Of a DNA stretch of 64,000 bases, positions 39,092 through 62,182 are shown piece by piece (the first letter of the stretch is position 1; each line of letters begins with the position of its first letter). The position numbers were made by a program, and so were the translations under genes. Under the pieces are notes generated by a model. It had not been told where the DNA came from and did not search any database. It saw only the letters and a program-made list of their open reading frames with translations. The stretch is from Paraburkholderia sp. BL10I2N1 (GTDB lineage Bacteria; Pseudomonadota; Gammaproteobacteria; Burkholderiales; Burkholderiaceae), in contig NZ_SNWA01000002.1 of assembly GCF_004361815.1 (NCBI RefSeq), positions 434,001-498,000 of the forward strand, in the 5' to 3' direction.

Positions 39092-39706
39092 CTATTGGCT
39101 AGCACACAGGTCCATTGACTGGAGCGCTATAGTGCCCGGCAAATTTTCGCTGGGAATAAGACTGAAAGCGTGCCAATCTGCTTCATTCACGTATACGACT
39201 CCATCCTTGCAAAGCATCTCCGCCTGCCTCGGCCGCTTTTCGCATTGTGCCGTACCAATCAGGCAGCGCTGCCATTGAGGAATCGCCCGCATCGGCTCAA
39301 TTGGACCAAAATCACTGCCCGTATATCCTTGCACAGGACGAGTCGCAATGGTCATGTGCAAGAATTCAAGATTGGGCTTAACCGGTCGCTCCGCTTCGGC
39401 TTCTACATAGTGCTGATGTAGTTTCCAGGTGTAAAAGCCCCATGCCGGAAGCAGCATGAGCAAGCACAAAGCTGCGTTGACAGCCAGCACTGTCTTGACT
39501 GTAATATGGCGCTTCCGCGTTGCAAGATGGCCGATCAAAGCAAATCCAAAGAAGCCTCCGATCGTAGTTAGGAAAAATATCCCGAATACCCGGTTCTCAC
39601 AGTCGTATCCACATCTCGGAGAAAACGCAAGGAATGATCCGGAAGCGAGCCAGCCTGCGGCCAGCCCCGCGATGGCAAAGACCAGGATTGCCAAGAATCT
39701 TTTCAC
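39092..39706 (-). CDS. Membrane protein, putative immunity partner of the Tae4-like amidase
   Basis: 204 residues, GTG start overlapping the amidase stop codon by four bases. Three hydrophobic segments lie in the first 110 residues (AILVFAIAGLAAGWLASGSF, FGIFFLTTIGGFFGFALIG, VLAVNAALCLLMLLPAWGF) and a C-terminal domain of about 90 residues with four Cys follows. Coupled translation right behind a peptidoglycan amidase effector suggests it protects the producer; known Tai4 proteins are small soluble periplasmic proteins, so this would be a different type. The function is inferred from position only. Confidence 0.55.
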   Translation of the reverse strand: MKRFLAILVFAIAGLAAGWLASGSFLAFSPRCGYDCENRVFGIFFLTTIGGFFGFALIGHLATRKRHITVKTVLAVNAALCLLMLLPAWGFYTWKLHQHYVEAEAERPVKPNLEFLHMTIATRPVQGYTGSDFGPIEPMRAIPQWQRCLIGTAQCEKRPRQAEMLCKDGVVYVNEADWHAFSLIPSENLPGTIALQSMDLCASQ

Positions 39707-40326
39707 TTTACTTCCCAGAACAAGATTTGTTTGGACTGCCTCAAATCTGAGAATCCGAACGAGTACCCCGCGAAAAAGGAGTTCATACCTAGCATTCGGC
39801 CAATTGTTGCGAACGAGTCTATCGGGCCGCTGATGGTCAGTCGGGTTCCGTTCCAGAGGTCAATATGCCCTCCGCTCGCATCGTCCGACTTTTCGCCATC
39901 GCGTGTCCAGTATCGGGAAAAGGCAATGATGCCGGTTCGGCCCTTGACCCTGGATGCCCAATCCGGTCCGGTAATGTTCTCTGCCGGCGGAAGCCCAGCG
40001 ATTGGCCGCAATTGTAGCCACTCGGCCAACTCGTCGGCCCGCGTGGCTGTAGGCTTGCCATCGAGCAAAAGGCGACCGACGCTCGACCTGCCGGCAGCCG
40101 GCTTGACCAGCTTCTGAGAGAACGACTTCATCTCGATGCCGACGCGATGGAAGGTTACACTCATGCGTATCGCACACTGATTCCCGTATTGCCCGTTCGG
40201 ATCGTTGTACGGATCACCCGTCGCGTAGTTGTCCCACAATTCCCGAAAGGTCAGCACCTTCAGTGACACTTCCTTGATTGAATTGGACGTTGGGTTTGTT
40301 CTGACCACTGTTTTTCTGTTCGGCAT
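39703..40326 (-). CDS. Type VI secretion amidase effector, Tae4-like
   Basis: 207 residues. The Tae4 peptidoglycan amidase pattern is visible: FRELWDNYATG near the N terminus, catalytic Cys51 in YGNQCAIRMSV, and catalytic His154 with Asp156 in ASGGHIDLWNG. This family cleaves the gamma-D-glutamyl-mDAP peptide bond in target-cell peptidoglycan after delivery by a type VI secretion system. It starts three bases after a PAAR protein gene, the spike tip that could carry it, and overlaps the membrane-protein gene after it. No signal peptide, as expected for T6SS effectors. Base composition is lower in GC than flanking genes, suggesting acquisition. Confidence 0.85.
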   Translation of the reverse strand: MPNRKTVVRTNPTSNSIKEVSLKVLTFRELWDNYATGDPYNDPNGQYGNQCAIRMSVTFHRVGIEMKSFSQKLVKPAAGRSSVGRLLLDGKPTATRADELAEWLQLRPIAGLPPAENITGPDWASRVKGRTGIIAFSRYWTRDGEKSDDASGGHIDLWNGTRLTISGPIDSFATIGRMLGMNSFFAGYSFGFSDLRQSKQILFWEVK

Positions 40327-40329
40327 GCT

Positions 40330-40881
40330 TCAGGCCCCTACCCGTCTCGCAAGGGCTTCGTCGCCCCAATAGATCGCGTACGTGCCGGCCACATCGGTTT
40401 CGATCCGGGGCAACAGCCCGTTCGCACCTACACGTCCAGAGAACGTGCGCCCGTCCGCCGTTTCGACAAAGTACGGATAGCCGTCGAGCGCGCCGCCCGA
40501 CGCGGCGGCGCGAACTTGTTCGTCATAGGTCGCGACGGATGCGCCTGTCGCGATGGCGGATTGCGCCGCGCTCGCCGCGTTGCGTGCAACCGCCGAACCC
40601 CGGTCCGTATTGAGAAAGATTCCCGGATTGCTGCCGACGATAACCCGGTTCTTTCCGCAGGGGCAAAGTACGGAATCGCCATCGACAACCACCGCCCGTC
40701 CCTTGTCCGACATTCCTTTTCCGGTCCCGAATATCCTGTATGTACCCGTGCAGTTCCCACAGGTGGCGTGATCGTCAGTCAGGGCAACCTTCTTCCCCTT
40801 ATCGTTAATCCTGGTCGAAGTGCCAATGACGTACCCGCCCGTTGTTGTAGGATCGCCGTCGCGGACCGCTGCTTTACGCAT
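40330..40881 (-). CDS. PAAR domain protein (T6SS spike tip)
   Basis: 183 residues. The N-terminal half is a PAAR-type fold of the CT_2 kind: VRDGDPTTTGGYVIGTST, a Cys pair in ATCGNCTGTY, VVDGDSVLCPCGKNRVIVG and SNPGIFLN. The C-terminal part (about 105-183) is variable, ending with a small beta-rich segment. PAAR proteins sharpen the VgrG spike and carry effectors. The RBS GGGGGAG precedes ATG. First full gene of the effector islet; no vgrG or baseplate genes are nearby. Confidence 0.85.
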   Translation of the reverse strand: MRKAAVRDGDPTTTGGYVIGTSTRINDKGKKVALTDDHATCGNCTGTYRIFGTGKGMSDKGRAVVVDGDSVLCPCGKNRVIVGSNPGIFLNTDRGSAVARNAASAAQSAIATGASVATYDEQVRAAASGGALDGYPYFVETADGRTFSGRVGANGLLPRIETDVAGTYAIYWGDEALARRVGA

Positions 40882-50303: not shown

Positions 50304-51992
50304 TCAGAACCGGTGATCCACGTCCGTGCCCGGTGTGAAGGACACCCCGCGCAGCACTTCTGCAAACCCCGCACCGCGCAACACGACAAATTTCTCGCGC
50401 GCCGCGCCGGCGGCTGTGGTGTTCTTCAGTACGTCGCGAATCGCTACCAGCCTGTTCGGATCAGCGCCGACATCGCCGTTACCGCTGACCGTCGACGTAA
50501 TCGCCCAGATCGTCACCGAGCCGTCGTCCTCGACGCGTCCGGTCAGGTTGCGCAGGCCGTCTGTCGAGGGTGCCCAGGGCAGACCGGTCGCCGTGTTGGA
50601 GCCGGTCGGATAGCCAGGCACCGTGTACTGCGTGCCGAGATCCAGACCCGCTTGCAACGTGTAGGCCAGCGTCCATTTTTTCGCAGCCGCGTTGTATACC
50701 CACTTCTGCAGGCCTGCGCCCGTCTGTGCGGCCGCGTGCGCATACAGATCCGTGCCGCCGGTATAACCGTCGCCCTCGTCGGCCACGTAGAGCGTATTGG
50801 CATCGGCGAACCAGAGTCCGAACGGGTAGGAGAGCGTCGTCGCGGACTTGTTGGGGGTTGCCGGGAAACCTGCCAGCACGCACATGTTGCTCGGCAGGCC
50901 GCTGGATTGCAGCGTGGCCGGGTTGTAGGCGAGCGGCGTCGTGGGCAGCGTCGCCGTAGCCGACGGCACACCCACACCCGACGGACAGGCCTTACCCGTC
51001 GTATCGAGGAAGTACACCGTATTCACGCCGTTGCCGCCGCTGCCTTTCGTGAAGAACAGCACGTTGTTGAATACCGTCATGCCGCGGAAGTTGTCGTCCT
51101 TGCCGATCTTGTCGGCTTTGGCGCCGAGTTCAGTGATCGAGAAACTGCCGAGCGGAGTCGGCGTGCCAGGATTCTGCTGCGCTTCGTGCTGCTTCGATGC
51201 GTCGATGAACTGGGCGCCCGCGCCGAGAATCACGCCATCCGGTTGCGGGTTGGCGCCGTTGCCGGCATTGCCCGCCGTGTAGAAGATGTCGTGACCGTTG
51301 CTGTTGTTCAGGATCGCCGAGCGGCCGTTATTGCCGCTATAGGCGTTGGTTTCGGTGAAACGGAAATGTCCATCGCGGTCGACGCGGGCGACAGCACGAT
51401 AGATATTCTGTCCAACGGGGTTAGTCGGATCGATCACACCCGGAGTGTTCGAGTTCGATACGTCGAGCGTATTGACCGGCGCGACGTAGCCCATGAAGGT
51501 CAAATACTTGCCGTCGGTGGACAGATGCAGGCCGAGTTCTGATTTTGAACTGAAGCTGGTCACCATCTGGTCGCGCGCGAAACCCCTCTGCAGGCTGTTA
51601 GGCACTTCGAGTGTGCTCACGAACCCGCCTCCTGGCGTGATCTGATCGAGGAAAATCCGCGACGTAATGCCGAAACTGCCGTCATAGCCGTCGTTGTTCC
51701 ATACGTACGGATACGTGCCGTCGCTGGGCGCACCGGTTGATGCAGAACAGCCTCCCGTCGTGTTCGCGCAGTTCGGCGGCAAAATCGAGCCCACCTGAAC
51801 GTTGCTCGACAGATTGTCGTAAGTACTGCGGCTGATCACCAGGAAACCTGGCTGAAAGCGGTTTTCGCCACCGAAAGAAAACTGCTGCGCATGCGCGGCG
51901 ATACTGGCGGCAACCAATGTGAGCGCGACGAGTGGCCGACGGCCAGCAACGAGAGGATGGCGAGTCGGCGGGGCAAGGACAGTGGTTTGCAT
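50304..51992 (-). CDS. Exported protein of unknown function, probable beta-propeller
   Basis: 562 residues from MQTTVLAPPTRHPLVAGRR, with GGAGA before ATG (the frame extends upstream without homology). A signal peptide ends LTLVAASIAAHAQ. The mature protein is rich in Gly, Asn, Thr and aromatic residues with repeated units such as DGKYLTFMGYVA, NNVLFFTKGSGGNGVNTVYFLD (in part), ANTLYVADEGDGYTGG and DGSVTIWAITSTVSGNGDVG. Spacing of these strands suggests a six- or seven-bladed propeller. Similar exported proteins occur in Burkholderiales without assigned role. Two Cys pairs may form disulfides. Confidence 0.6.
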   Translation of the reverse strand: MQTTVLAPPTRHPLVAGRRPLVALTLVAASIAAHAQQFSFGGENRFQPGFLVISRSTYDNLSSNVQVGSILPPNCANTTGGCSASTGAPSDGTYPYVWNNDGYDGSFGITSRIFLDQITPGGGFVSTLEVPNSLQRGFARDQMVTSFSSKSELGLHLSTDGKYLTFMGYVAPVNTLDVSNSNTPGVIDPTNPVGQNIYRAVARVDRDGHFRFTETNAYSGNNGRSAILNNSNGHDIFYTAGNAGNGANPQPDGVILGAGAQFIDASKQHEAQQNPGTPTPLGSFSITELGAKADKIGKDDNFRGMTVFNNVLFFTKGSGGNGVNTVYFLDTTGKACPSGVGVPSATATLPTTPLAYNPATLQSSGLPSNMCVLAGFPATPNKSATTLSYPFGLWFADANTLYVADEGDGYTGGTDLYAHAAAQTGAGLQKWVYNAAAKKWTLAYTLQAGLDLGTQYTVPGYPTGSNTATGLPWAPSTDGLRNLTGRVEDDGSVTIWAITSTVSGNGDVGADPNRLVAIRDVLKNTTAAGAAREKFVVLRGAGFAEVLRGVSFTPGTDVDHRF

Positions 51993-52451
51993 TGATAGTC
52001 TCCGTACGGCATTAGGGGGATTGTTCGTATACGGACTGACAGGTGTAACCGCGCTACCGTAGCAGCGCTTGATGAAGGATTGATTGCGTGGCCAACGGTG
52101 TAAACCACTACGCGTTGCTGGCGGCGCCAGCATTCCGCTGATCAGGAAATGCCATCGAAAGCTTATTGCCAGATCCGGCAATGTCTTGCGCTATCCAGAT
52201 CGAGACCTGGGTTCAATTCCCGCGCATCTCGCTCGTCTGATCTGCATGGCGGACTGCGGGACGTTCTCCTTCTCAAAGCTCGTTTCCTCACACGTTTCTC
52301 GTGCATCCAGCTAGCTGGCTATCAAGAATGAGAACCGCCGCCATCACGTCCCGGTGAGTGTGCCTGTCTGTTCGCGTCATTCGCCGTACGCGTCGTTCCC
52401 GCGAATCTGCGCAGTGCAAAACCGCACTGACCATCTTGAAAGGAGACTCAC
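51993..52451. other. Divergent intergenic region containing a tRNA-like 3' fragment
   Basis: About 460 bp between two divergent genes. At 52205-52236 the sequence CTGGGTTCAATTCCCGCGC resembles a tRNA T-arm with the GGTTCAATTCC loop signature, but the stem pairs poorly, no 5' acceptor or anticodon arm precedes it and CCA is absent. Promoters of both flanking genes must lie here. Confidence 0.4.
52205..52236 (+). other. Possible tRNA 3' remnant (T-arm signature only)
   Basis: GGTTCAATTCCCGCG followed by CATCTCGCTCG resembles the T-arm and acceptor end of a tRNA. Only the T-loop and three stem pairs fit. Might be a relic of an integration site or chance. Confidence 0.2.
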
Positions 52452-52937: not shown

Positions 52938-55199
52938 TCAGGAGTCGAAGTCGAGCCTCTTGATCCTGTCGCCTGCTGGCGGAGGAATGCGGCCAGCGCC
53001 TTCCCGTTGGTTCGGAAACTCTTTCTTGTCGGCGTGCGGTATGGCATGTGGAGGCGGCCCCTGCCCGGCGTTCGCTTCGTGCTTCTCCGACCTGATCCGC
53101 TCCTCCTTCGACGCCCTTGACTCGACCCAGTTACGTGCCCACTCGTGGTCCGTCGTGCTGTGGGCAGTCACACCGGCCGGTTCTCCGGCGATACACCGGG
53201 CGTGCATCTGCCGCAGCTTTTCCCTTGCCAGCATTCGTGCAATCTGAGGGCCGGCGACACTGGTTCCATCCATGGCGACTACGCTACGGCTTCGCGTACC
53301 TGCACCAAGGACGCCGAAACATGCGGCCGAGTCGTCGCTGACAGCGGCTGCGTCCGGTCCCTCCCGCAGCGGCTTGCCCAGGTACCCCGGCTCTACGCCT
53401 GGTCCGGTGGCAGAGTAGCGCGCCGGCTTGCCGTCGCTGCCGCGAAAGCCGGCAACAACAGCCGTGTATTTACCTGTCGCCACGGAGTTGATCGTCCCCT
53501 TGCGTTTGACCCAGCTATTTTCGTTGCCGTCGTCCGTGTCCTTCTCATGCCCCCAGCAATCGAAGCGCCTGTACCGGCAATCTTCGAAGCGTGTCTGGCG
53601 GCCGCGCAGCGGGTACCCGTACGCGGTCTCATCGCGCTGTATCCACGCGTGCACACGAAGATCGGACTTCCCTCCGTTTGTGACGCGGATCATCCACATG
53701 CCAGTGTCCGCAGTATCGCGTTCGGGATCGTGCGTCGTGGTGGGCGCGAGCGCGACGAGAATCATCTGCCGGCTCCCCGTTGCGACGCGACGCAGATAGA
53801 CCACCGTGCACAGGACGTCGCCCGCCGGCTTCCACGTATGCACTTCGTTTAGCCTGATAGACGGACTTTTGTCGCCACGGGGCGTGGTGATTTCGAGCTC
53901 GACCTGGCCGGCGTCGGCGTCGGGCGGCAGCCAGACTTCCAGAAAACTCGGCGTGGCGTCATCGGGCAGCGTGCGCCAATTGAGCGTCTGGGACTTGTCA
54001 CGCTCGAGAAGAAATTCCGCATGACACCGGGCCAGATTGCTGTTGCCGACGGGAATCACGATGGAAAGATCAGGATGTCGTTCAATCAGTTCATCGATCG
54101 CGTCTTCGATCATCGAGCTGCCGTCGTGCGGTCCTGCAATGTAACCGTAGCTCAGGTTGACGATCACCGGACACGGGCCCCTGGCAAGCTGGTTCGCGCG
54201 ATGCAGGATATAGCGGAGCGCGTCGAGCGCATATACCCCGAACCAGAGACCTGACGTGTCGCGGATCGTGCGTCCCGGCGGGTGAAACTGGACACAGATG
54301 ATGTGCGGCTCGCCCACCTCTTTCGAGCCGTCGGCGCTGTGCGCGTGGTGCGTGGGCTGAGGCGCTTGCGCGCCTGCCGCCTGCGGGGCTTCGGCCGGTT
54401 TCGCACCGCATGCCAGGTCCATGATCTGAGTACCGTGCGCCCATCGGTGCCGCACGCTCATGTATTCGGCCTCTCTGTACAGGGCGTCCTCATCCACCAG
54501 TCCGCCGTACAGGCATTGCTTCATCAGGTGATCGATGTCGCGCTTCAGAAACTCCCGCCCGTAGACTGCATCCGTCGGTATCCCGGGCGGCCCCTGGTCC
54601 CAGAAGCACTCGATCCGCGTCGAAGGTTCGTCAGTATCGACTTCGCGAAAGCGTTGATGGGCAAATGCCAGACCGTCGTCGATAACGCCCATGAAAACCG
54701 GGTGACACTTTTCATCCACCCCTGCAAGGGGGTCGACCGTACGATCGGGATCGAACGGATAACTGATCGCCGGTACGGGCACGACGGCATCGTCGGGGAC
54801 CACGGGCAGCCCAAGCTCGACACGCGCCACGATACCCTTGAGCAAACCGTCGAGTTCTGCAAAGAACCGCTTCGTGACCGCTGCGGTGAGAAAGCGGGTC
54901 CGCACGAGATCCGCAGGCGGGTTCAGATACAGCGGCGACACCTGGAGCCATTCGCCCCATTGCTGGCTCTCGACCATACGCGCAAACTGCTGCGCATCCC
55001 CGGCTCCCCGGGTTGGGTGCTGGTCCACCAGTTCGATCATCACGCGAACCCGATGCGCCGGCGGGTGACCTAGATCGACGAACTGCGTCGCATCCGCCCA
55101 GACGAGATACGGATCGATACGCGCGGCATCATCCGCGCGCCCGGTCCAGTCCTGACCGGTCCAGCTATCTGCGACGCCTGACATCCAGTGCGTGCCCAT
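52938..55199 (-). CDS. Subtilisin-like serine protease (S8), no signal peptide
   Basis: 753 residues. The catalytic triad is complete: Asp in VFMGVIDDGLAFAHQRF, His in RWAHGTQIMDLACG, Ser in VAMDGTSVAGPQIAR, plus the oxyanion Asn region IVIPVGNSNLAR. Before the catalytic core lie about 160 residues of own N-terminal domain (LVWADATQFVDLGHPP) and the core carries large insertions (beta-rich, about 405-560). The C-terminal 100 residues are charged and Pro-rich. No signal peptide, propeptide-like stretch or membrane anchor is visible, so it acts in the cytoplasm or leaves by a non-classical route. Follows the PAP2-like gene by 36 bp, so they are co-transcribed. Confidence 0.9.
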   Translation of the reverse strand: MGTHWMSGVADSWTGQDWTGRADDAARIDPYLVWADATQFVDLGHPPAHRVRVMIELVDQHPTRGAGDAQQFARMVESQQWGEWLQVSPLYLNPPADLVRTRFLTAAVTKRFFAELDGLLKGIVARVELGLPVVPDDAVVPVPAISYPFDPDRTVDPLAGVDEKCHPVFMGVIDDGLAFAHQRFREVDTDEPSTRIECFWDQGPPGIPTDAVYGREFLKRDIDHLMKQCLYGGLVDEDALYREAEYMSVRHRWAHGTQIMDLACGAKPAEAPQAAGAQAPQPTHHAHSADGSKEVGEPHIICVQFHPPGRTIRDTSGLWFGVYALDALRYILHRANQLARGPCPVIVNLSYGYIAGPHDGSSMIEDAIDELIERHPDLSIVIPVGNSNLARCHAEFLLERDKSQTLNWRTLPDDATPSFLEVWLPPDADAGQVELEITTPRGDKSPSIRLNEVHTWKPAGDVLCTVVYLRRVATGSRQMILVALAPTTTHDPERDTADTGMWMIRVTNGGKSDLRVHAWIQRDETAYGYPLRGRQTRFEDCRYRRFDCWGHEKDTDDGNENSWVKRKGTINSVATGKYTAVVAGFRGSDGKPARYSATGPGVEPGYLGKPLREGPDAAAVSDDSAACFGVLGAGTRSRSVVAMDGTSVAGPQIARMLAREKLRQMHARCIAGEPAGVTAHSTTDHEWARNWVESRASKEERIRSEKHEANAGQGPPPHAIPHADKKEFPNQREGAGRIPPPAGDRIKRLDFDS

Positions 55200-55235
55200 G
55201 GGTCCACCTCTTTTGCAGAAGGACGGGAGGTCCGT

Positions 55236-56501
55236 TCAGGTACCAGGAAGCCGCGTCGTGGCAAGCGCCCGGTTGTCCCACTCAGCGGCCGCCTGATTCC
55301 ATATCCACGCGAGAATTTCAGATCCTTCGACCTCCGATTCGGTATCGCACCATTCGATCCACCCGAAATCGTCGCGACGTACCTCCTCAGGGTCTCTGTC
55401 GGGGACCCTTTGGCACCAGGCAAGGAGTTCGGCCATATTCAACGGCTGGTGCGGCTCGAAGTCGAGAAGCCCATTGAACTTTGGACCGTTGAACGTTCTG
55501 GGCGTGAATCCGCCTCGCTTCCCGGGCACGTATTTGCAGCGGTGAACGAAATACTCGGCAAGCGTGGTGCCGAGCAACCGTCCCGCGATGTGGTCCACCG
55601 GGAAGTGCACGCCAGCGATCGTCCGGTTGATGGTGACGCGGTACGCCTGGCGCATGAGCTGTTGTCCGAACACCGATGTTTCCGGCTGGCCGCGCAGCGC
55701 GCAGAGGACATTCGAGACGATATAGGCCTGCGTGCCGTGACCGCTCGGAAGCGAGCCGTGCCCCGGTGTCTGGATCATCGGCTGTACCTGGGGCGAGTAG
55801 TCGATGGGGCGCGGTACCGCCAGCGCGTGTTTGAACCTCATTTCCACGAAGATCGCAAAGCGCACCACCGTATCGAGCAACTCCAGTGTCTTGGGCGTAC
55901 GCGCCGGATGAAGGTTCGCGATCGAACTCCAGAACGCGAGCTGCGGTCCCATTTGGTAAAGAATCTCCGATGCGCGGTCCTCCCGCAGATCGGCGTATTC
56001 GTCCATCTTTCCCAGTTGCTCGATGAAGGCCCTTTCCGGCGGCCGGATCATGCTCGCGATCCGGGTCATGCTGGCTTGGCCGCCACCCTTGCCGCTTTCG
56101 TCCTGGCCGCTCCAGCCCGTCCCCTGTCCGCCGGGCGCACCGCCCTTGTGCCACAGGCTCACCTTGCCGTCGCTCGACCTGGAAAAGTGAAGGTTGGACA
56201 ACAGCTCGAAATCGAATACCGTTGCCCGCACCCACGGTTCCCATCTCCATAGCTGCGCCGGGTCTTCGACGAGCCGCAGCGCCGGTCCCTCGTTGAGGTC
56301 GACCTCGATCTGCTTGCCTTTCCAGTTGCCGACTATCCCGTCGCGGTGACCGATCAGGGCGTCCGCCAACAGCCAGGACTCATAGGTCACCCCTCCGCCG
56401 GAGGCGGGCGCGCCGCCCACGTCGTTCCCTCCGCCCGCACCACCGGCGCCGCCAGCGCCACCCGCGCCGCCCGCCCCGCCTGCACCACCGAGTCCGCTCA
56501 C
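55236..56501 (-). CDS. PAP2/vanadium haloperoxidase-like protein with Gly/Ala repeat N terminus
   Basis: 421 residues. The first 25 residues are GGA repeats (encoded by 56430-56498), followed by an alpha-helical protein. The three acid phosphatase/haloperoxidase motifs are intact: KHALAVPRP, LPSGHGTQAY and RTIAGVHFPVDHIAGRLLG (binding the phosphate or vanadate, with His residues in PSGH and VHFPVDH). Length and helical composition fit vanadium-dependent haloperoxidase homologues better than membrane PAP2 enzymes, as no membrane helices are visible. No signal peptide. Co-transcribed with the subtilase gene. Whether it is a phosphatase or haloperoxidase cannot be told. Confidence 0.85.
   Translation of the reverse strand: MSGLGGAGGAGGAGGAGGAGGAGGGNDVGGAPASGGGVTYESWLLADALIGHRDGIVGNWKGKQIEVDLNEGPALRLVEDPAQLWRWEPWVRATVFDFELLSNLHFSRSSDGKVSLWHKGGAPGGQGTGWSGQDESGKGGGQASMTRIASMIRPPERAFIEQLGKMDEYADLREDRASEILYQMGPQLAFWSSIANLHPARTPKTLELLDTVVRFAIFVEMRFKHALAVPRPIDYSPQVQPMIQTPGHGSLPSGHGTQAYIVSNVLCALRGQPETSVFGQQLMRQAYRVTINRTIAGVHFPVDHIAGRLLGTTLAEYFVHRCKYVPGKRGGFTPRTFNGPKFNGLLDFEPHQPLNMAELLAWCQRVPDRDPEEVRRDDFGWIEWCDTESEVEGSEILAWIWNQAAAEWDNRALATTRLPGT
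56430..56498 (-). repeat. Gly-Gly-Ala triplet repeat tract
   Basis: About seven tandem copies of a 9-bp unit encoding Gly-Gly-Ala at the N terminus of the haloperoxidase-like protein; such tracts can vary in copy number by slippage. Confidence 0.75.
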
Positions 56502-56546
56502 GATCGCTCCTCCGTCTTCGATATCAAACCAGCCCGTGAACTGCGG

Positions 56547-58385
56547 CTACGCGGGCAATCCTGCCCTCCTCAACGCCTCGGACCAGATTGGACCGGTCTT
56601 GTACCCGGCACATGGCGAACGCTCCAGATAGCTCGTGACGGTCAGCGTCGAATCGTAGGCGAGCACTTCGTTGACCGTCGCGTGAGCCGCTTCAGTCTGC
56701 CCGAGCAGCGATTGGGCAATGGCAAGCGCGCGCAGCGTCGATGTGTTGGTGCGGTTGGAGCGCAATGAGCGTTGCGCGAGTTCGATCGCCCGCTCGTAGC
56801 GACCCGCGGACAGAGCCGCGGTGGCGCCGAGCGATTCATAAAACGAACGCAGCGGATCGAGGGGAGACAGCCTGAGCGCGCGCTCGGTGGCATCGACCGC
56901 GACCGACCCTTCGCCCTTGAATGCGTGCAGGGTGCCGTCGAGAAGCCAGGCAAGCGAATCGTTGGGATTGACGCTCAGCGCTTCTTCATAGCGCTTCTGC
57001 CCGATGTCCAGCCGCCTGAGCAGACTGGTATGGACGAAGCCGTCGATGGCCAGTGCCAGCGAACAGCGCGGATCGACATCGAGCGCCCGCTTCGTGCAAT
57101 CGAGCGCGGCTTCGGCCTCGCTCAGCCTGTCGTTCGTCCAGCCGCGGTTAAAGCGCAGCACATGCCATTTCGCAAGCCATGCGTGCGGCGTCGCCTGACG
57201 GCGCGCGCGCTCAGCGAGAACTTCGAGCATGTCCCGCGCGCGGTGAAAATCGTAGGCCACGCCGCGATGCATCAGCACGATCGCACTCATCAACAGCGTG
57301 CAGCTTTCGAGTGTCGGCAATGCCTGCGACTGGGCGCGCTGCACCTCGTGAGCAATGATCGCCGTGCTGATTTCGGAGACGACACAATGCGTCAGGTCAT
57401 CGTCGCCATTCATGATTTCCGCTATGCGGCCCGTGAGGCTGTCGCTCCACACGACACGGCGCGACTTCGTTTCCGCCAGTTCGGCAACGAGTATCAAATG
57501 ATCGCCCGAGATCCGGTAAGCACCCGACAGGACGTAGTTGACGCCGAGAAAATCGCTGACTTCGTCAAGCGTCGCGTCGCGTCCGCGAAAGGCGGTGGTG
57601 GATAAACGGGAGATGACTTCCAGTTCCGATGTACGGCACAACGACGAAATGATCTCATCGGCCAGCACCTCGCCAAGCACAAAGTGCTCGGGCTGGACGC
57701 CGCGCGCGGTGAAGGGAATGACGGCGATCGTCGGGCGAAGTTCAGGCAGAAATGAGCTATGCGGCTCGATCACAGGGCGCGGCCCCGGAGCGCCAATGCG
57801 ATACGCCCGCACCGGACGCTTCAGGTGCTTGAGGTGGCAATCGCCGAGGTCCTCGATGTCGGCGTCGAGTTCCGCGGTCAACTGGTCGCGAACTTCCACC
57901 GAGACCACAATTTCACCGGGCCCGGCCAGGGTGTAGAGGCGTGCGGCCAGATTGACGCCGCGTCCGTACACGTCGCGCTGGTCCTCGAACAGTTCGGTGA
58001 CATGCAGGCTCATGCGCAACAGCAGGTGCTGGGCCGGCACAAGGTTGACGTTGAGGCTCACGCACGCACGCTGGATCGCGAAGGCGGCCTGCACAGCGTG
58101 ATGCACGCTGACGAACGTGACCATCAACCCGTCGCCCTCTGTCCTGATCAGGCGACCGCTATGCGCCGGTACGATCCTGCTTTCGATATGGGCTCGCAGA
58201 TCGCGCCATCGCGTGGCCGCACCCGCTTCATCGTCCTCGATCAGGCGACACGATTCCACCAGGTCGGCGAACAGCACTGTCCGGACCACCCGCACGAATT
58301 CATCCGATGAATGTGAAACGTTTGGGGTCACATTGTTCGAACCTGCTTTTCGGAAGCCCTTGGCATGGTGAGGTGCGTCGGCCAT
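56547..58385 (-). CDS. Class III nucleotide cyclase with TolB-like and TPR domains
   Basis: 612 residues from MADAPHHAKGFRKAG (ATG; an upstream frame of 50 codons has no homology). Domains: catalytic cyclase domain (about 30-205; metal Asp in VLFADLVESCRL, second metal Asp in TEGDGLMVTF, transition-state Asn and Arg in YGRGVNLAARLYTLA), then a TolB-N/FlgO-like domain (TIAVIPFTARG; LGEVLADEIISSLCRTSELEVI) and a C-terminal TPR array (about 400-600). It probably makes cAMP; substrate-specifying residues differ enough that cGMP cannot be ruled out. Lies downstream of, and on the same strand as, a regulator with a cyclic-nucleotide-binding domain. Confidence 0.9.
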   Translation of the reverse strand: MADAPHHAKGFRKAGSNNVTPNVSHSSDEFVRVVRTVLFADLVESCRLIEDDEAGAATRWRDLRAHIESRIVPAHSGRLIRTEGDGLMVTFVSVHHAVQAAFAIQRACVSLNVNLVPAQHLLLRMSLHVTELFEDQRDVYGRGVNLAARLYTLAGPGEIVVSVEVRDQLTAELDADIEDLGDCHLKHLKRPVRAYRIGAPGPRPVIEPHSSFLPELRPTIAVIPFTARGVQPEHFVLGEVLADEIISSLCRTSELEVISRLSTTAFRGRDATLDEVSDFLGVNYVLSGAYRISGDHLILVAELAETKSRRVVWSDSLTGRIAEIMNGDDDLTHCVVSEISTAIIAHEVQRAQSQALPTLESCTLLMSAIVLMHRGVAYDFHRARDMLEVLAERARRQATPHAWLAKWHVLRFNRGWTNDRLSEAEAALDCTKRALDVDPRCSLALAIDGFVHTSLLRRLDIGQKRYEEALSVNPNDSLAWLLDGTLHAFKGEGSVAVDATERALRLSPLDPLRSFYESLGATAALSAGRYERAIELAQRSLRSNRTNTSTLRALAIAQSLLGQTEAAHATVNEVLAYDSTLTVTSYLERSPCAGYKTGPIWSEALRRAGLPA

Positions 58386-58703
58386 GACGCACGTCCGCCC
58401 GCCTCTGCTCACGCGTTGCCGGATGGCGCGACAGCACTTTACGTGCTGCGCCGACGACTCGTGCACGCTACTGAAGACCTGTCTGGATAAGGCGCACGTA
58501 TCAATGGATGATGCGTGACTCTGGGTCGTCTTCACCGGATTCGCGTTTGTATGAGTTATAGCCGATAAACGGTTTTTGACTGCTCATTTTTAACGCACTG
58601 CGGGGCGTTGCAGGCGAGCATTTCATCGCGTGCGTGACCCGTGGACAGAGGTATCAGAGTGGTCCGTGCGAGGCTTCGCAAGCGATGCGCTCGAAGCCAT
58701 GGC
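58386..58703. other. Intergenic region before the cyclase gene
   Basis: About 318 bp between the regulator and cyclase genes (same strand). The part at 58540-58600 is relatively AT-rich, a probable promoter for the cyclase gene. No gene recognised. Confidence 0.4.
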
Positions 58704-59735
58704 CTAGGACGAGGAGCGCCGTTTGTCCGCCTCGAGCCGGCGCGTAATGAGATGAATGAGGTATACCGCGAATTCCGGGTCCTGGTAGTAGAGCCGCATC
58801 GCGTCGGTGGCCGTGACCGTCAGCAACTCCGTGTCGGTTTCGCACCGGGCCGTGCAGGTGCGTCTGTGATCGGGCGAGAACAGTCCGATTTCGCCGAGCA
58901 TCGTACCGGGACCCACGTCGACATCGATCTCCTTCAGCCGGATCGTTCCCCGCACGACGTAGTACAGCGCGTCGGCAGGATCGCCTTGGCGAAAGAGCGT
59001 CTCGCCGCGGCGGTACTGAGTGCGCGTCATGTATGCGAGCAGGCGCCCGACTGAAAGCTGTCCCTCCAGCGCCTGGCGGATCTGCTCGTCGGCAACGGTT
59101 TTCAGACGCGTCGCAGCGACGCTGGCCTGACTGCGGCTGCTCACCTTGAGTGCCTTGTATGCCGTGTAAAGATGCACCTTGACGGTCCCTTCGGCAATGT
59201 CCAGGTGACGCGCGATCGTCTTGTTCGATTCGCCGCGCGCGGCTCTCGCCAGCACTTCGATCTGTCGTGGAGTCAGGGCGCGCGGGCTGTCCTGCGACTC
59301 CTTGTCCGGCTTTGCATGCGGAATTTCGCGCGGACCGTGCTGATTCACCGCGAAGTCCACCAACGCCCTCGGCAGATAGATGCCTCCCGATAGCACCAGA
59401 CGCAATGCGTCGAGCAATACGGAGGAGGATTCAGATTTGTCGAAACAGCCTGTGACGCCTGAGGCGATCAGGTTCTCGACAGTGTTCGGATCGGTTGTCG
59501 TGAGCAGCACCACGATCGGCGCAGCAGGTACCAGTTTGCGTATCGCGTCGATCGCCTGCAGCGCCTCTTTCAGATAGTCGCCGTCGAGCACGACGAGATC
59601 GGCCGGCGCGCTGGTGTCGAGCGCCGCCCCCGCGTAGTCGACGCATGTGACTTCTGCCGCCGGATCCAGATCGCGCAGAATGCGTGCAACTCCGTCAGGA
59701 AGTAATCCGGCGGGGCCGGCGAGAAGAATGTGCAT
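58704..59735 (-). CDS. Response-regulator receiver-LuxR HTH-cyclic nucleotide-binding fusion regulator
   Basis: 343 residues in three domains. A receiver domain (1-125) keeps the phospho-acceptor Asp51 (VVLDGDYLKE) and Lys in GCFDKSES, but the acidic pair normally near residues 8-10 is absent (HILLAGPAGLL). A LuxR/FixJ helix-turn-helix domain follows (LTPRQIEVLARAARGES, NKTIARHLDIAEGTVKVHLY). The C terminus (about 215-343) is a CRP-type cNMP-binding domain (YRRGETLFRQGDPADALYYV; phosphate-binding cassette GEIGLFSPDHRRTCTARC with Glu and Arg). The order HTH before cNMP domain is unlike CRP. The class III cyclase encoded next is the obvious ligand source. Confidence 0.9.
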   Translation of the reverse strand: MHILLAGPAGLLPDGVARILRDLDPAAEVTCVDYAGAALDTSAPADLVVLDGDYLKEALQAIDAIRKLVPAAPIVVLLTTTDPNTVENLIASGVTGCFDKSESSSVLLDALRLVLSGGIYLPRALVDFAVNQHGPREIPHAKPDKESQDSPRALTPRQIEVLARAARGESNKTIARHLDIAEGTVKVHLYTAYKALKVSSRSQASVAATRLKTVADEQIRQALEGQLSVGRLLAYMTRTQYRRGETLFRQGDPADALYYVVRGTIRLKEIDVDVGPGTMLGEIGLFSPDHRRTCTARCETDTELLTVTATDAMRLYYQDPEFAVYLIHLITRRLEADKRRSSS

Positions 59736-60059
59736 GCGTTTCTTCGCGTTAGGATGAGCCTTCTTCCTGCGGCGTCGGTCATGCGCAAACGGTCGACGAT
59801 TGCGCGCCCGGTTTCGAACTGCCTCATTACATTATGGTCTGCTTCGAGCCAGAATATTTTCGACCGGGTCAAATTCTCAGACAACGACATGTTGCTTATT
59901 TGAATATCGGGAAAACGGGCATTTACGCGAAGGCAGGAAGTGAGCCAGAGGGCACTAAACCGTTGTGGTACCGCGCGGAGTAAACATTGGGACGCATTGT
60001 TTCAATGTGAGAGCCAATGACACAAAGCGGCTGGTGGCCATCGAGCGCGCCGGTGACGC
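59736..60059. other. Intergenic region upstream of the fusion regulator gene
   Basis: About 324 bp between tssC and the regulator gene. The stretch at 59815-59940 is distinctly AT-rich (containing GAATATTTTCGACC on the plus strand) and is the likely promoter region of the regulator. No ORF of note. Confidence 0.45.
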
Positions 60060-61574
60060 TTAAGCGGCAAATTTTCCGGAGGGCAGCGTCGACACGATGC
60101 ACAGCGAAACGGTGAGCCCGTCCAGCTGGTAGTACGGCCTCAAAAAAAATTGTGACGTGTAGTAACCGGGCGAGCCTTCGACTGGTTCGATCCTGACTCT
60201 CGCAGCGGCAAGCGGCTTTTGCGCCCTGGTGAATTCGGACGAATGGAGCGGATCCCCATCGACATAATTCATGATCCAGTTGTTAAGCCACCTCTCCATG
60301 TCGGCGTGCCCCTTGAATGTCCCGAGCCGGTCGCGCGCAATGCACCGGAGATAGTGCGCAAACCGGCTGCAGGCGAAGCAATACGGCAGGCGCGCGGCCA
60401 GAGCGGCATTCGCCGTCGCATTGGAATCGTCGTATTCAGCGGGCTTTTGCAGGGACTGTGCGCCTATGAACGCGGCGAAGTCCGCGTGCTTGCGGTGAAT
60501 AAGCGGCATGAAGCCGTTCTTCGCCAGTTCCGCTTCACAGCGGTCCGAAATCGCGATCTCGGTCGGACATTGCGTCTCGACGCTGCCATCGTCGCCCGGA
60601 AAACTGTGCGCCGGCAGGCCTTCGAGCGCCCCGCCCGATTCCACGCCGCGAATCCTCGCACACCAGCCATACAGATTGAACGACCGGTTGATATTGACGG
60701 CCATCGCATACGCCGCGTTGGCCCACACATATTTCCCATGCTCCGCCGAACCGGTGTCCTCCTCGAATTCGAACTGGTCGACCGGCGCGGTGCGCGCGCC
60801 ATAGGGCATGCGCGCCAGAAACCGCGGCATGGCGAGGCCGACATAACACGCGGCCGCGGATTCGCGCAGCGACCGCCAGCCCGCATATTCGGGCGCGTTG
60901 AAGATCCCGGTCAGATCGCGCCGTCTCGCCAGCTCCTGCCACGAATCCATCTGCATCAGCTTCGGGCTCGCGCCCGCGATAAACGGCGCCTGCGCAGCGG
61001 CCGCGAGACTCGCCATCCCGCCAAGCAGTTCCAGATCGGGTGGCCCGTGATCGAAGTAGAAATCGCCGATCAGCGCGCCGAACGGCTCACCGCCGACGTG
61101 CGCGAAAGGTTCCTGGCAGACCGTCCGGAAGAGCGGACTCTGCTCCCACGCGTCGTCCCTGAAACGCTCGAGGGTTTCGCCAAGCTCGCTCTTCGCGATG
61201 TTCAGCGTGCGAATCTTCAGCATCTCGCTGGTGTCGGTGTTGTTGACGAGGTAGTGCAAACCGCGCCACGAGCCCTCTAGCTGCTGAAATTCCGGATGAT
61301 GCAGGATCAGGTTCAACTGCCCGGCGAGCTTCCCGTCGATCCCCGCGACCAGGGTCTGGATCGTCCGAACAACATCGTCCGGGACAACCTGGTCTTGCAA
61401 CAGGACCTGCTGCGCCAGTGTCCGCACCTCACTCCGTAGCGCCTTCTTCGTCCCCTCCGTCTTCGATCTGAACTCCTTTTCCAGCAGGGCGGCAAGGTCG
61501 TCGCCTTCGGGCATCGCCCCCTGTGCATCCGGTCGAGCCGGCGGCGGGCCGGAGGATCGAGGTGTCTTGCACAT
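60060..61574 (-). CDS. tssC: Type VI secretion sheath large subunit TssC (EvpB/VC_A0108 family)
   Basis: 504 residues from MCKTPRSSGPPPARPD, GGGAG upstream. Family signatures are clear: LNLILHHPEFQQLEGSWRGL, YLVNNTDTSEMLKIRTLNI, ALIGDFYFDHGPPDLELL, FIAGASPKLMQMDSW, MPYGARTAPVDQFEFEE and a C-terminal TSQFFLRPYYQLDGLTVSL. With TssB it polymerises into the contractile sheath around the Hcp tube. Length is normal and no frame damage is seen. No hcp, tssE, tssF/G, vgrG, clpV or tssJKLM gene lies around it in this window. Confidence 0.95.
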   Translation of the reverse strand: MCKTPRSSGPPPARPDAQGAMPEGDDLAALLEKEFRSKTEGTKKALRSEVRTLAQQVLLQDQVVPDDVVRTIQTLVAGIDGKLAGQLNLILHHPEFQQLEGSWRGLHYLVNNTDTSEMLKIRTLNIAKSELGETLERFRDDAWEQSPLFRTVCQEPFAHVGGEPFGALIGDFYFDHGPPDLELLGGMASLAAAAQAPFIAGASPKLMQMDSWQELARRRDLTGIFNAPEYAGWRSLRESAAACYVGLAMPRFLARMPYGARTAPVDQFEFEEDTGSAEHGKYVWANAAYAMAVNINRSFNLYGWCARIRGVESGGALEGLPAHSFPGDDGSVETQCPTEIAISDRCEAELAKNGFMPLIHRKHADFAAFIGAQSLQKPAEYDDSNATANAALAARLPYCFACSRFAHYLRCIARDRLGTFKGHADMERWLNNWIMNYVDGDPLHSSEFTRAQKPLAAARVRIEPVEGSPGYYTSQFFLRPYYQLDGLTVSLCIVSTLPSGKFAA

Positions 61575-61678
61575 GGTGGCATTCTCCCGGTAGATGCTTT
61601 CGATACGTGGTATCGACCGGCGCCTGGGGCGCCTCTGGGCGGCGGACTTGCGACAGCTGCGCAAACCCATGTGCGCCA

Positions 61679-62182
61679 TCACGTGCTCCCGGCTGGCGGA
61701 CCGTCCGATGCAAGCGTCTTGAGCCACGCCGGATCTTTCAGCATCCTCGCAATCAGTTCTTCCGCGCCTGCCTTGCCATCCATTCTGGTGAGCAGACCGA
61801 CAAGCTGGGTACGCGCCTCGAGCAGTTGGCGAAGCGCGTCGATCCTGCGCACGAGTGCGCCGGGTGCAAAGTCGTCCATGCTCTCGAAGGTCATGTCGAC
61901 GCTGAGGTCGCCTGCCTGAGTCAGCGTATCCGGCACCTCAAACGCGACGCGCGGCTTGATCGCCTTCATCCGGCTATCGAAGTTATTGGCATCGATCTCC
62001 TCGAACCTGCGTTCCGCGACCGGCGGCAACGGGTCTGCGGGCTTGCCCGACAGGTCGGCCAGCACGCCCATTACGAACGGCAACCGGTTTTTCTGTTCGT
62101 CGCCGTCCACTTCGACTTCGTATTCAATCTGCACGCGTGGAGCGCGGTGGCGAACGTCGAATTTCTGCCTGCCGGTGGACAT
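61679..62182 (-). CDS. tssB: Type VI secretion sheath small subunit TssB
   Basis: 167 residues. The TssB core is intact: RVQIEYEVEVDGDEQKNRLPFV, MGVLADLSGKPADPLPPV, FEEIDANNFDSRMKAIKPRV and LSVDMTFESMDDFAPGALV (each in part), followed by helices (RIDALRQLLEARTQLVGLL). Forms the sheath heterodimer with TssC, whose gene starts 104 bp later. First gene of the 9.2-kb minus-strand block and divergent from the dppA-like gene. Confidence 0.95.
   Translation of the reverse strand: MSTGRQKFDVRHRAPRVQIEYEVEVDGDEQKNRLPFVMGVLADLSGKPADPLPPVAERRFEEIDANNFDSRMKAIKPRVAFEVPDTLTQAGDLSVDMTFESMDDFAPGALVRRIDALRQLLEARTQLVGLLTRMDGKAGAEELIARMLKDPAWLKTLASDGPPAGST

Follow-up and report, generated by a model that had tools for sequence, protein, structure and literature searches.

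We analysed a window of 64,000 nucleotides (nt) from Paraburkholderia sp. BL10I2N1 (contig NZ_SNWA01000002.1, positions 434,001 to 498,000), in which six genes run in one direction from tssB to a subtilase gene (Table 1). Four of them, encoding a regulator, a cyclase with tetratricopeptide repeats (TPR), a PAP2 or vanadium-haloperoxidase-like enzyme and the subtilase, form a conserved module in which the PAP2 enzyme begins with a tail of exact short repeats. All six open reading frames (ORFs) were found on the minus strand, about where the original prediction had placed them. The families it had named for the sheath pair of the type VI secretion system (T6SS), the regulator, the cyclase and the PAP2 enzyme were supported by Pfam and NCBIfam, and that of the subtilase was later supported by its fold.

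Table 1. Genes and features at the locus, in positions of the window.
Feature	Position	Strand	Basis
S8 subtilase, 753 aa, CspB fold in the model; D174, H255, N386 and S647 invariant in alignments	52938-55199	-	PF00082 and structure model
PAP2 / vanadium-haloperoxidase-like enzyme, 421 aa; K224, R231, S253, H255, R293, H299 and D303 present	55236-56501	-	PF01569
N-terminal repeat tail of the PAP2 enzyme: Met, SGL, then 20 residues of exact GGA repeat	56430-56498	-	
Protein with class III cyclase domain, TolB-like region and TPR	56547-58535	-	PF00211, TPR families
Regulator: receiver-like region, LuxR helix-turn-helix, cyclic nucleoside monophosphate (cNMP)-binding domain	58704-59735	-	PF00196, PF00027
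tssC, orphan sheath large subunit, outside the module	60060-61727	-	TIGR03355 and context
tssB, orphan sheath small subunit, outside the module	61679-62182	-	TIGR03358 and context
ORF of 625 aa downstream of the module	50304-52181	-	
PAAR protein	40330-40881	-	
Tae4-type amidase	39703-40326	-	

From the subtilase towards tssC, the intergenic gaps are 36, 45, 168 and 324 nt, and the widest separates the regulator from tssC. The short gaps of 36 and 45 nt make the cyclase, PAP2 and subtilase genes look like a single operon, and the spacing alone hints at two units in the block. A scan for promoters and terminators gave a yield no higher than in shuffled sequence. The 625-aa ORF that lies downstream of the module had no Pfam or NCBIfam match.

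The original prediction treated the six genes as one regulated, sheath-dependent system with the haloperoxidase-like protein and the protease as its cargo. Their common strand and adjacency in the host agree with this idea, as do genes for a PAAR protein and a Tae4-type amidase 12-13 kb away. However, tssB and tssC were absent from all 91 loci fetched around the regulator, PAP2 or subtilase genes (with flanks that reach about 10 kb at most, and with some species counted twice because the loci came from two genome collections). Conversely, the tssBC relatives that we fetched all lay in a T6SS cluster, with tssH and further T6SS genes nearby (17/17, namely 15 TssC relatives and two on named Caballeronia plasmids, out of well over 100 TssC matches listed). 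The synteny thus breaks between tssC and the regulator, where the 324-nt gap lies, and no working baseplate was seen in the host. The prediction was right that the regulator, cyclase, PAP2 and subtilase genes belong together, while tssBC is not part of that set; the cargo idea fails on synteny, and we consider a common sheath-dependent system extremely improbable. Judged by genomic context, the block is an orphan tssBC pair adjoining a separate four-gene module, and tssBC is a bystander. The interest of the locus accordingly moves from the T6SS genes to their neighbours.

We then explored the conservation of the module. In a first sample of 97 genomes of the genus, strong subtilase matches and strong PAP2 matches occurred in the same 11 genomes, host included, and two further genomes had weak matches only. 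The order regulator, cyclase-TPR, PAP2, subtilase on one strand was kept in all ten other carriers, including one whose module is divided between two contigs. When genomes of named species were scanned with a subtilase profile and the best 80 of 99 relatives were retained, 78 distinct loci emerged. The loci fall mainly in Alpha- and Betaproteobacteria and come from Burkholderiales, Rhizobiales, Rhodobacterales, Kiloniella and its kin, several metagenome-assembled genomes (MAGs) and one MAG labelled as a planctomycete. The PAP2 gene lies directly upstream of the subtilase gene on the same strand in 77 of the 78, the exception being a 3.4-kb contig. The gap between them is at most 150 nt in 75 of these 77, a count biased to short gaps by picking the subtilase start nearest to the PAP2 stop. 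A gene for a TPR protein adjoins PAP2 in 76 of the 78 loci; 31 of these proteins carry a cyclase domain, one is cut by a contig end and 44 carry another head, seven of the 44 genes being divergently oriented. At L128, L132 and L141, a cNMP-binding gene is located downstream of the subtilase.

When a PAP2 profile was used instead, 2 of 369 genomes matched at the level of the class, too few to be of use, and nine of 399 at the level of the order, host included in both. The eight non-host matches comprised six modules of cyclase-TPR, PAP2 and subtilase, one locus in which no subtilase was found and one gene outside any module. On the Phaeobacter side, the modules L102, L199, L200 and L201 are carried by plasmids typed as conjugative, and that of L198 by a plasmid typed as non-mobilizable. 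In P. phymatum STM815, the module is located on NC_010625.1. The view that the locus resembles none described was borne out for the four-gene module, which matches no system in the literature that we reached. Searches of open-access literature, with subscription journals and preprints outside their scope, returned no paper on the module or on an orphan tssBC pair.

The PAP2 domain of the window enzyme was detected with PF01569 at 1.5e-8. Its active-site residues are invariant in one alignment (A2) and likewise in a second (A5), where S253 is nearly so. The profile matches in the PDB were class A acid phosphatase (7f17/7f18) and vanadium bromoperoxidases (1qi9). The enzyme keeps the residues that bind phosphate or vanadate, as a member of the PAP2 / vanadium haloperoxidase superfamily, and may act as a phosphatase or a haloperoxidase. 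Its structure model had a mean predicted local distance difference test score (pLDDT) of 83.2, and residues 1-41, which hold the tail, fell below 50. No leader sequence was seen by eye ahead of the repeat (no signal-peptide program was run).

The subtilase matches Peptidase_S8 (PF00082) at 5e-4, below the family cut-off. For its structure model (pLDDT 85.1; predicted template modelling score 0.91), the best Foldseek match was CspB (4i0w, E = 5.3e-24), followed by CspA and CspC and then by Tk-SP, Kex2 and furin. A profile search likewise had Csp proteases as its best match. The model therefore gives the subtilase a CspB fold. The catalytic D174, H255 and S647 and the oxyanion residue N386 are invariant in two alignments (A1 and A6). 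At locus L114, the subtilase ORF (from 9972) carries a TPA repeat near its C-terminus.

The third protein combines a cyclase domain (Guanylate_cyc, PF00211, 2.8e-7) with TPR families and a presumably TolB-like region. The two metal aspartates (D91 and D135) and the N/R pair (N195 and R199) are invariant in all 18 aligned cyclases. The regulator has a GerE domain (PF00196, 4e-16) and a cNMP_binding domain (PF00027, 4.8e-17). It was found at more than 300 bits in 20 of the 97 genomes of the genus. In the nine of these that lack PAP2 and subtilase, a different, larger cyclase match lies nearby each time (two weak, one fragmentary); a second regulator copy in genome G021 has no larger cyclase nearby. 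The recurrence of a cyclase beside the regulator as a pair supports local cyclic-nucleotide control, short of proof, and the module would be under such control. The larger cyclase type stands beside a LuxR-cNMP regulator at L070-L078, L097 and L098. The one in Caballeronia M1242 has SAM, cyclase and AAA domains and lies about 25 kb from the tssBC of a T6SS cluster.

The TPR halves of the cyclase-headed and other-headed proteins are homologous, with 35% identity over 404 columns. In Phaeobacter, the other head matches Trans_reg_C at 4.5e-14 and is clearly a winged helix. Elsewhere a SARP-like nature was judged by eye, with a weak Pfam match in one of 22 proteins. One Phaeobacter protein (L102:3914-6037) joins a winged helix, a cyclase region that looks degenerate by eye and a TPR half.

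We examined the tail of the PAP2 enzyme at 82 loci with a PAP2 gene, namely the window, four plasmid loci and 77 of the 78 named loci. An N-terminal tail of at least four exact three-residue units was present in 80 of them; of the remaining two, L111 lies on a contig that starts within the gene and L167 has lost its frame in the tail region. The tails comprise 25 unit types, including GGA, GGF, SGD, HAG and TAM, whose letters vary by lineage. The copy number is 4-17 per tail (median 9). Among the loci found from PAP2, all six modules with a subtilase are tailed (AGA, GGA, SGW, WEG, NGF and the four-residue SGGA). The locus without a detected subtilase has cyclase-TPR and a PAP2 gene with a two-residue AN tail, and the sole gene outside any module has no tail. 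Exact short repeats thus go with the module, and three residues are the usual unit length without being obligatory.

We compared neighbouring units at the DNA level. Because a perfect stretch was defined by identity, the lack of amino-acid change inside it holds by construction, and the information lies in synonymous divergence and length. The DNA differed in 593 of 634 pairs of neighbouring units, by 2.24 nt on average, and encoded the same residues. This variation of codons between units indicates that selection maintains the repeat at the protein level. It also tells against neutral products of DNA slippage, as does the observation that imperfect units at the tail edges often stay in triplet frame. 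Slippage would account for the variation of unit number between close relatives (5, 6, 6 and 7 in the four Phaeobacter plasmid tails read to the end) and for the HAS and GMH tails, in which units are nearly identical in DNA and look recently expanded. As an explanation of the repeats in general, it is hardly more credible than the sheath-dependent system.

The position of the tail relative to the start codon was evaluated with a fixed choice of start, namely the in-frame ATG closest to the tail within 60 codons or, failing that, GTG and then TTG. Between the Met of the enzyme and the repeat lie 0-18 residues, and the tail starts a multiple of three residues after that Met in 75 of the 80 loci, where one third would be expected. 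Counted by distinct lead sequence, 39 of 44 are in triplet register. Lead lengths of 0, 3, 6, 9 and 12 residues imply several whole-triplet changes. The loci out of register are L102, L129, L142, L160 and L178, and L102 and L160 come into register when read from another unit letter. Residue 2 of the enzyme is S, A, G, T or P in 77 of the 80; such residues suit methionine aminopeptidase. Taken together, these sequence comparisons show a conserved tail that is kept up at the protein level, stands in register with the start codon and is linked to the module.

A tail of this kind could be purely structural, i.e., a low-complexity arm that packs, bundles or clusters the PAP2 enzyme, or docks it on the subtilase, and is never cut. 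Glycine-rich GGX units predominate, repeats of this type can form helices with three residues per turn, the tail is predicted to be disordered in the monomer, and units of two, four and five residues occur. However, packing requires neither exact identity of all units nor units that lack glycine, such as HAS, SSD, STQ and TAM, and it leaves both the start-codon register and the standing link to a protease gene unexplained. We regard a structural arm as unlikely overall, although it ranks ahead of the other alternatives.

The letters of the unit change often. A subtilase tree of 79 rows, built quickly and containing some long branches, implies 32 or more changes of unit. AGT, TGL, SGV, SGV and AGI are found in Kiloniella species that share 72-88% subtilase identity. 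Between L183 (GGF) and L187 (GGL), the third letter differs in all nine units at a subtilase identity of 89%, and the nine units of L187 use eight codon sets. The GGF to GGL replacement thus affects every unit of L187 compared with its close relatives L183 and L185, despite the many codon sets. How codon-diverse units change their letters together is an evolutionary puzzle. We know of no bacterial parallel for an enzyme-protease pair with an exact short repeat whose letters are swapped wholesale between close relatives.

Such changes would suit a tail that acts as a tandem precursor, from which the subtilase would release a short peptide specific to the lineage for the TPR protein to sense, after the fashion of kexin-cut pheromone precursors or of the TPR receptors in RRNPP signalling. 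The many identical units per protein, the frequent unit changes and the Kiloniella series are in its favour, and so are the TPR regulators that adjoin the pair and the presence of Kex2 and furin among the fold matches. If true, bacteria would have an equivalent of the tandem pheromone precursors processed by kexin, in which an enzyme carries the message, and the message would be mostly a tripeptide, rewritten wholesale between sister species. However, no leader was seen by eye ahead of the repeat, the repeat forms part of an enzyme, and a tripeptide like GGA would make a poor private signal. We consider a peptide precursor quite improbable, clearly more so than a structural arm.

The best-supported mechanism, which we advance tentatively as somewhat short of probable, is that the subtilase recognises and trims the tail and so controls the PAP2 enzyme. 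In its favour are the constant pairing of the PAP2 and subtilase genes with a TPR-protein gene beside them, the exact tail with its synonymous divergence and its register, the tails of the six further modules as against the untailed PAP2 outside any module, the CspB fold, and the charged subtilase residues described below. A TPR protein with a signalling head would govern the enzyme-protease pair; the head would be a cyclase acting through the LuxR-cNMP regulator here and a DNA-binding-like domain in other lineages. The newly made PAP2 enzyme would bear a disordered tail of exact short repeats at its N-terminus, which the CspB-fold subtilase would recognise and cut from the N-terminus, unit by unit or at unit borders. 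Cutting would then activate, release or time the PAP2 enzyme, in a way comparable to the removal of the propeptide from a cortex hydrolase in the CspB pathway. The pair hints at an unfamiliar mode of enzyme control, and it poses a testable biochemical question: does the subtilase read the PAP2 tail?

Subtilase residues were compared with unit letters. In the clade whose units end in D or E, the subtilase has L389R in five of five sequences and in none elsewhere, and H358K in five of five versus one of 75 elsewhere; the two replacements add positive charge. The stretches around residues 358 and 389 may lie near the P1 pocket of subtilisins. We also considered the first proline after the tail as a block to triplet cutting. 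It lies at position 3 or 1 in 65 of 79 loci and at position 2 in 14, a mild bias confounded by ancestry, and this candidate was set aside.

Several results weigh against cutting of the tail by the subtilase. The charged subtilase positions are confined to one clade, and a general covariation scan of subtilase columns against the third letter of the unit (36 differing and 122 equal pairs) gave no signal at the presumed pocket, its best block being columns 600-609. Shared ancestry inflates the register counts, and only three of the five three-residue tails found from PAP2 are in register by the strict rule, the WEG and NGF tails being so only when read from another letter. Units of four residues (L213, with a subtilase), two (L219, where no subtilase was found) and five (GGFSQ in the database proteins P0106 and P0107) count against an enzyme that strictly cuts tripeptides. 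Finally, none of 120 listed database PAP2 proteins satisfied the tail rule; many of these are incomplete or begin downstream of the repeat, and some that start with Met have no long exact repeat or have imperfect in-frame triplets.

We compared the module with known systems. The clostridial Csp germination proteases (CspB, CspA and CspC) are the nearest match of the subtilase in fold and profile, with about 15% identity in the structural comparison. The module differs from them in occurring mainly in Proteobacteria and one planctomycete-labelled MAG, in having no germination setting, and in having a repeat-tailed PAP2 enzyme as partner. According to a report on CspB (PMC3567191), a jellyroll is inserted in this protease, and pro-SleC loses its N-terminal propeptide through the CspB pathway; whether CspB itself cuts pro-SleC directly is left open there. 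The likeness extends to the Csp fold and not to the germination pathway with SleC (no SleC gene was sought). Tripeptidyl-peptidase II was considered as another relative and discarded, since neither the 10 profile matches nor the 50 listed Foldseek rows included it.

Soluble PAP2 enzymes (class A acid phosphatases and vanadium haloperoxidases) have active-site residues in common with the module enzyme and are among its profile matches, whereas the exact repeat tail, the standing subtilase partner and the lack of a leader by eye set the module enzyme apart. Class III cyclase systems likewise combine a cyclase with a cNMP-binding transcription regulator, but the module cyclase shares its polypeptide with a TPR half, which bears another head elsewhere. 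RRNPP signalling and tandem pheromone precursors resemble the module in having a TPR regulator, a protease and a repeated short peptide. RRNPP regulators join helix-turn-helix and TPR; in the module, TPR occurs with both head types and the winged helix is clear only in Phaeobacter. Moreover, the module shows, by eye, no secreted precursor with a leader and its repeat is part of an enzyme; we do not claim membership. Anti-phage defence systems were rejected as well. For Pycsar, a PycC match at 1.3e-9 did not extend beyond the cyclase fold, and the cyclase has a transcription regulator as its partner, whose TIR-effector matches cover the cNMP domain only. The PADLOC matches were generic ones to cyclase and cNMP families, with IetS only at 0.016.

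The orphan pair consists of genuine T6SS genes, since tssB matches TIGR03358 at 4e-52 and tssC matches TIGR03355 at 7.9e-191. Relatives begin to align about 50 codons into the listed tssC ORF, and the true start of the gene is probably there. The closest other TssC among 144 genomes of the genus, host included, is 68% identical. The queries were Caballeronia TssA, B, C, E, F, G, H, TagH, Hcp and VgrG, and did not include TssJ, L or M. For these ten kinds of protein, tssBC gave the only match in the window, and none was found in the next 19 kb rightward. The statement that no other T6SS core gene lies near tssBC therefore holds for the ten kinds, and in this the pair differs from a T6SS.

Matches to TssK were found only on contigs other than that of the window, one at full length close to where contig C4 begins and a broken copy where C3 ends. 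Over 7.8 kb, these two contig ends agree at 99.5%, with 39 gap openings, which is most simply explained by one locus assembled twice. The TssC of this cluster is a 374-aa frame that covers positions 3-207 of 301 in the VipB model and lacks the second sheath domain, and the cluster also contains a Tn5-type transposase. Since the sole full-length TssK stands in a cluster with a truncated TssC, we see no baseplate that could serve the orphan sheath genes. The pair thus has no obvious working partner here and is most likely a relic, or an addition of unknown use. Hcp matches occur at four places in the host genome. Stray T6SS effector genes also lie in the window 12-13 kb to the left of tssBC, where the gene for the PAAR protein is followed by that for the Tae4-type amidase.

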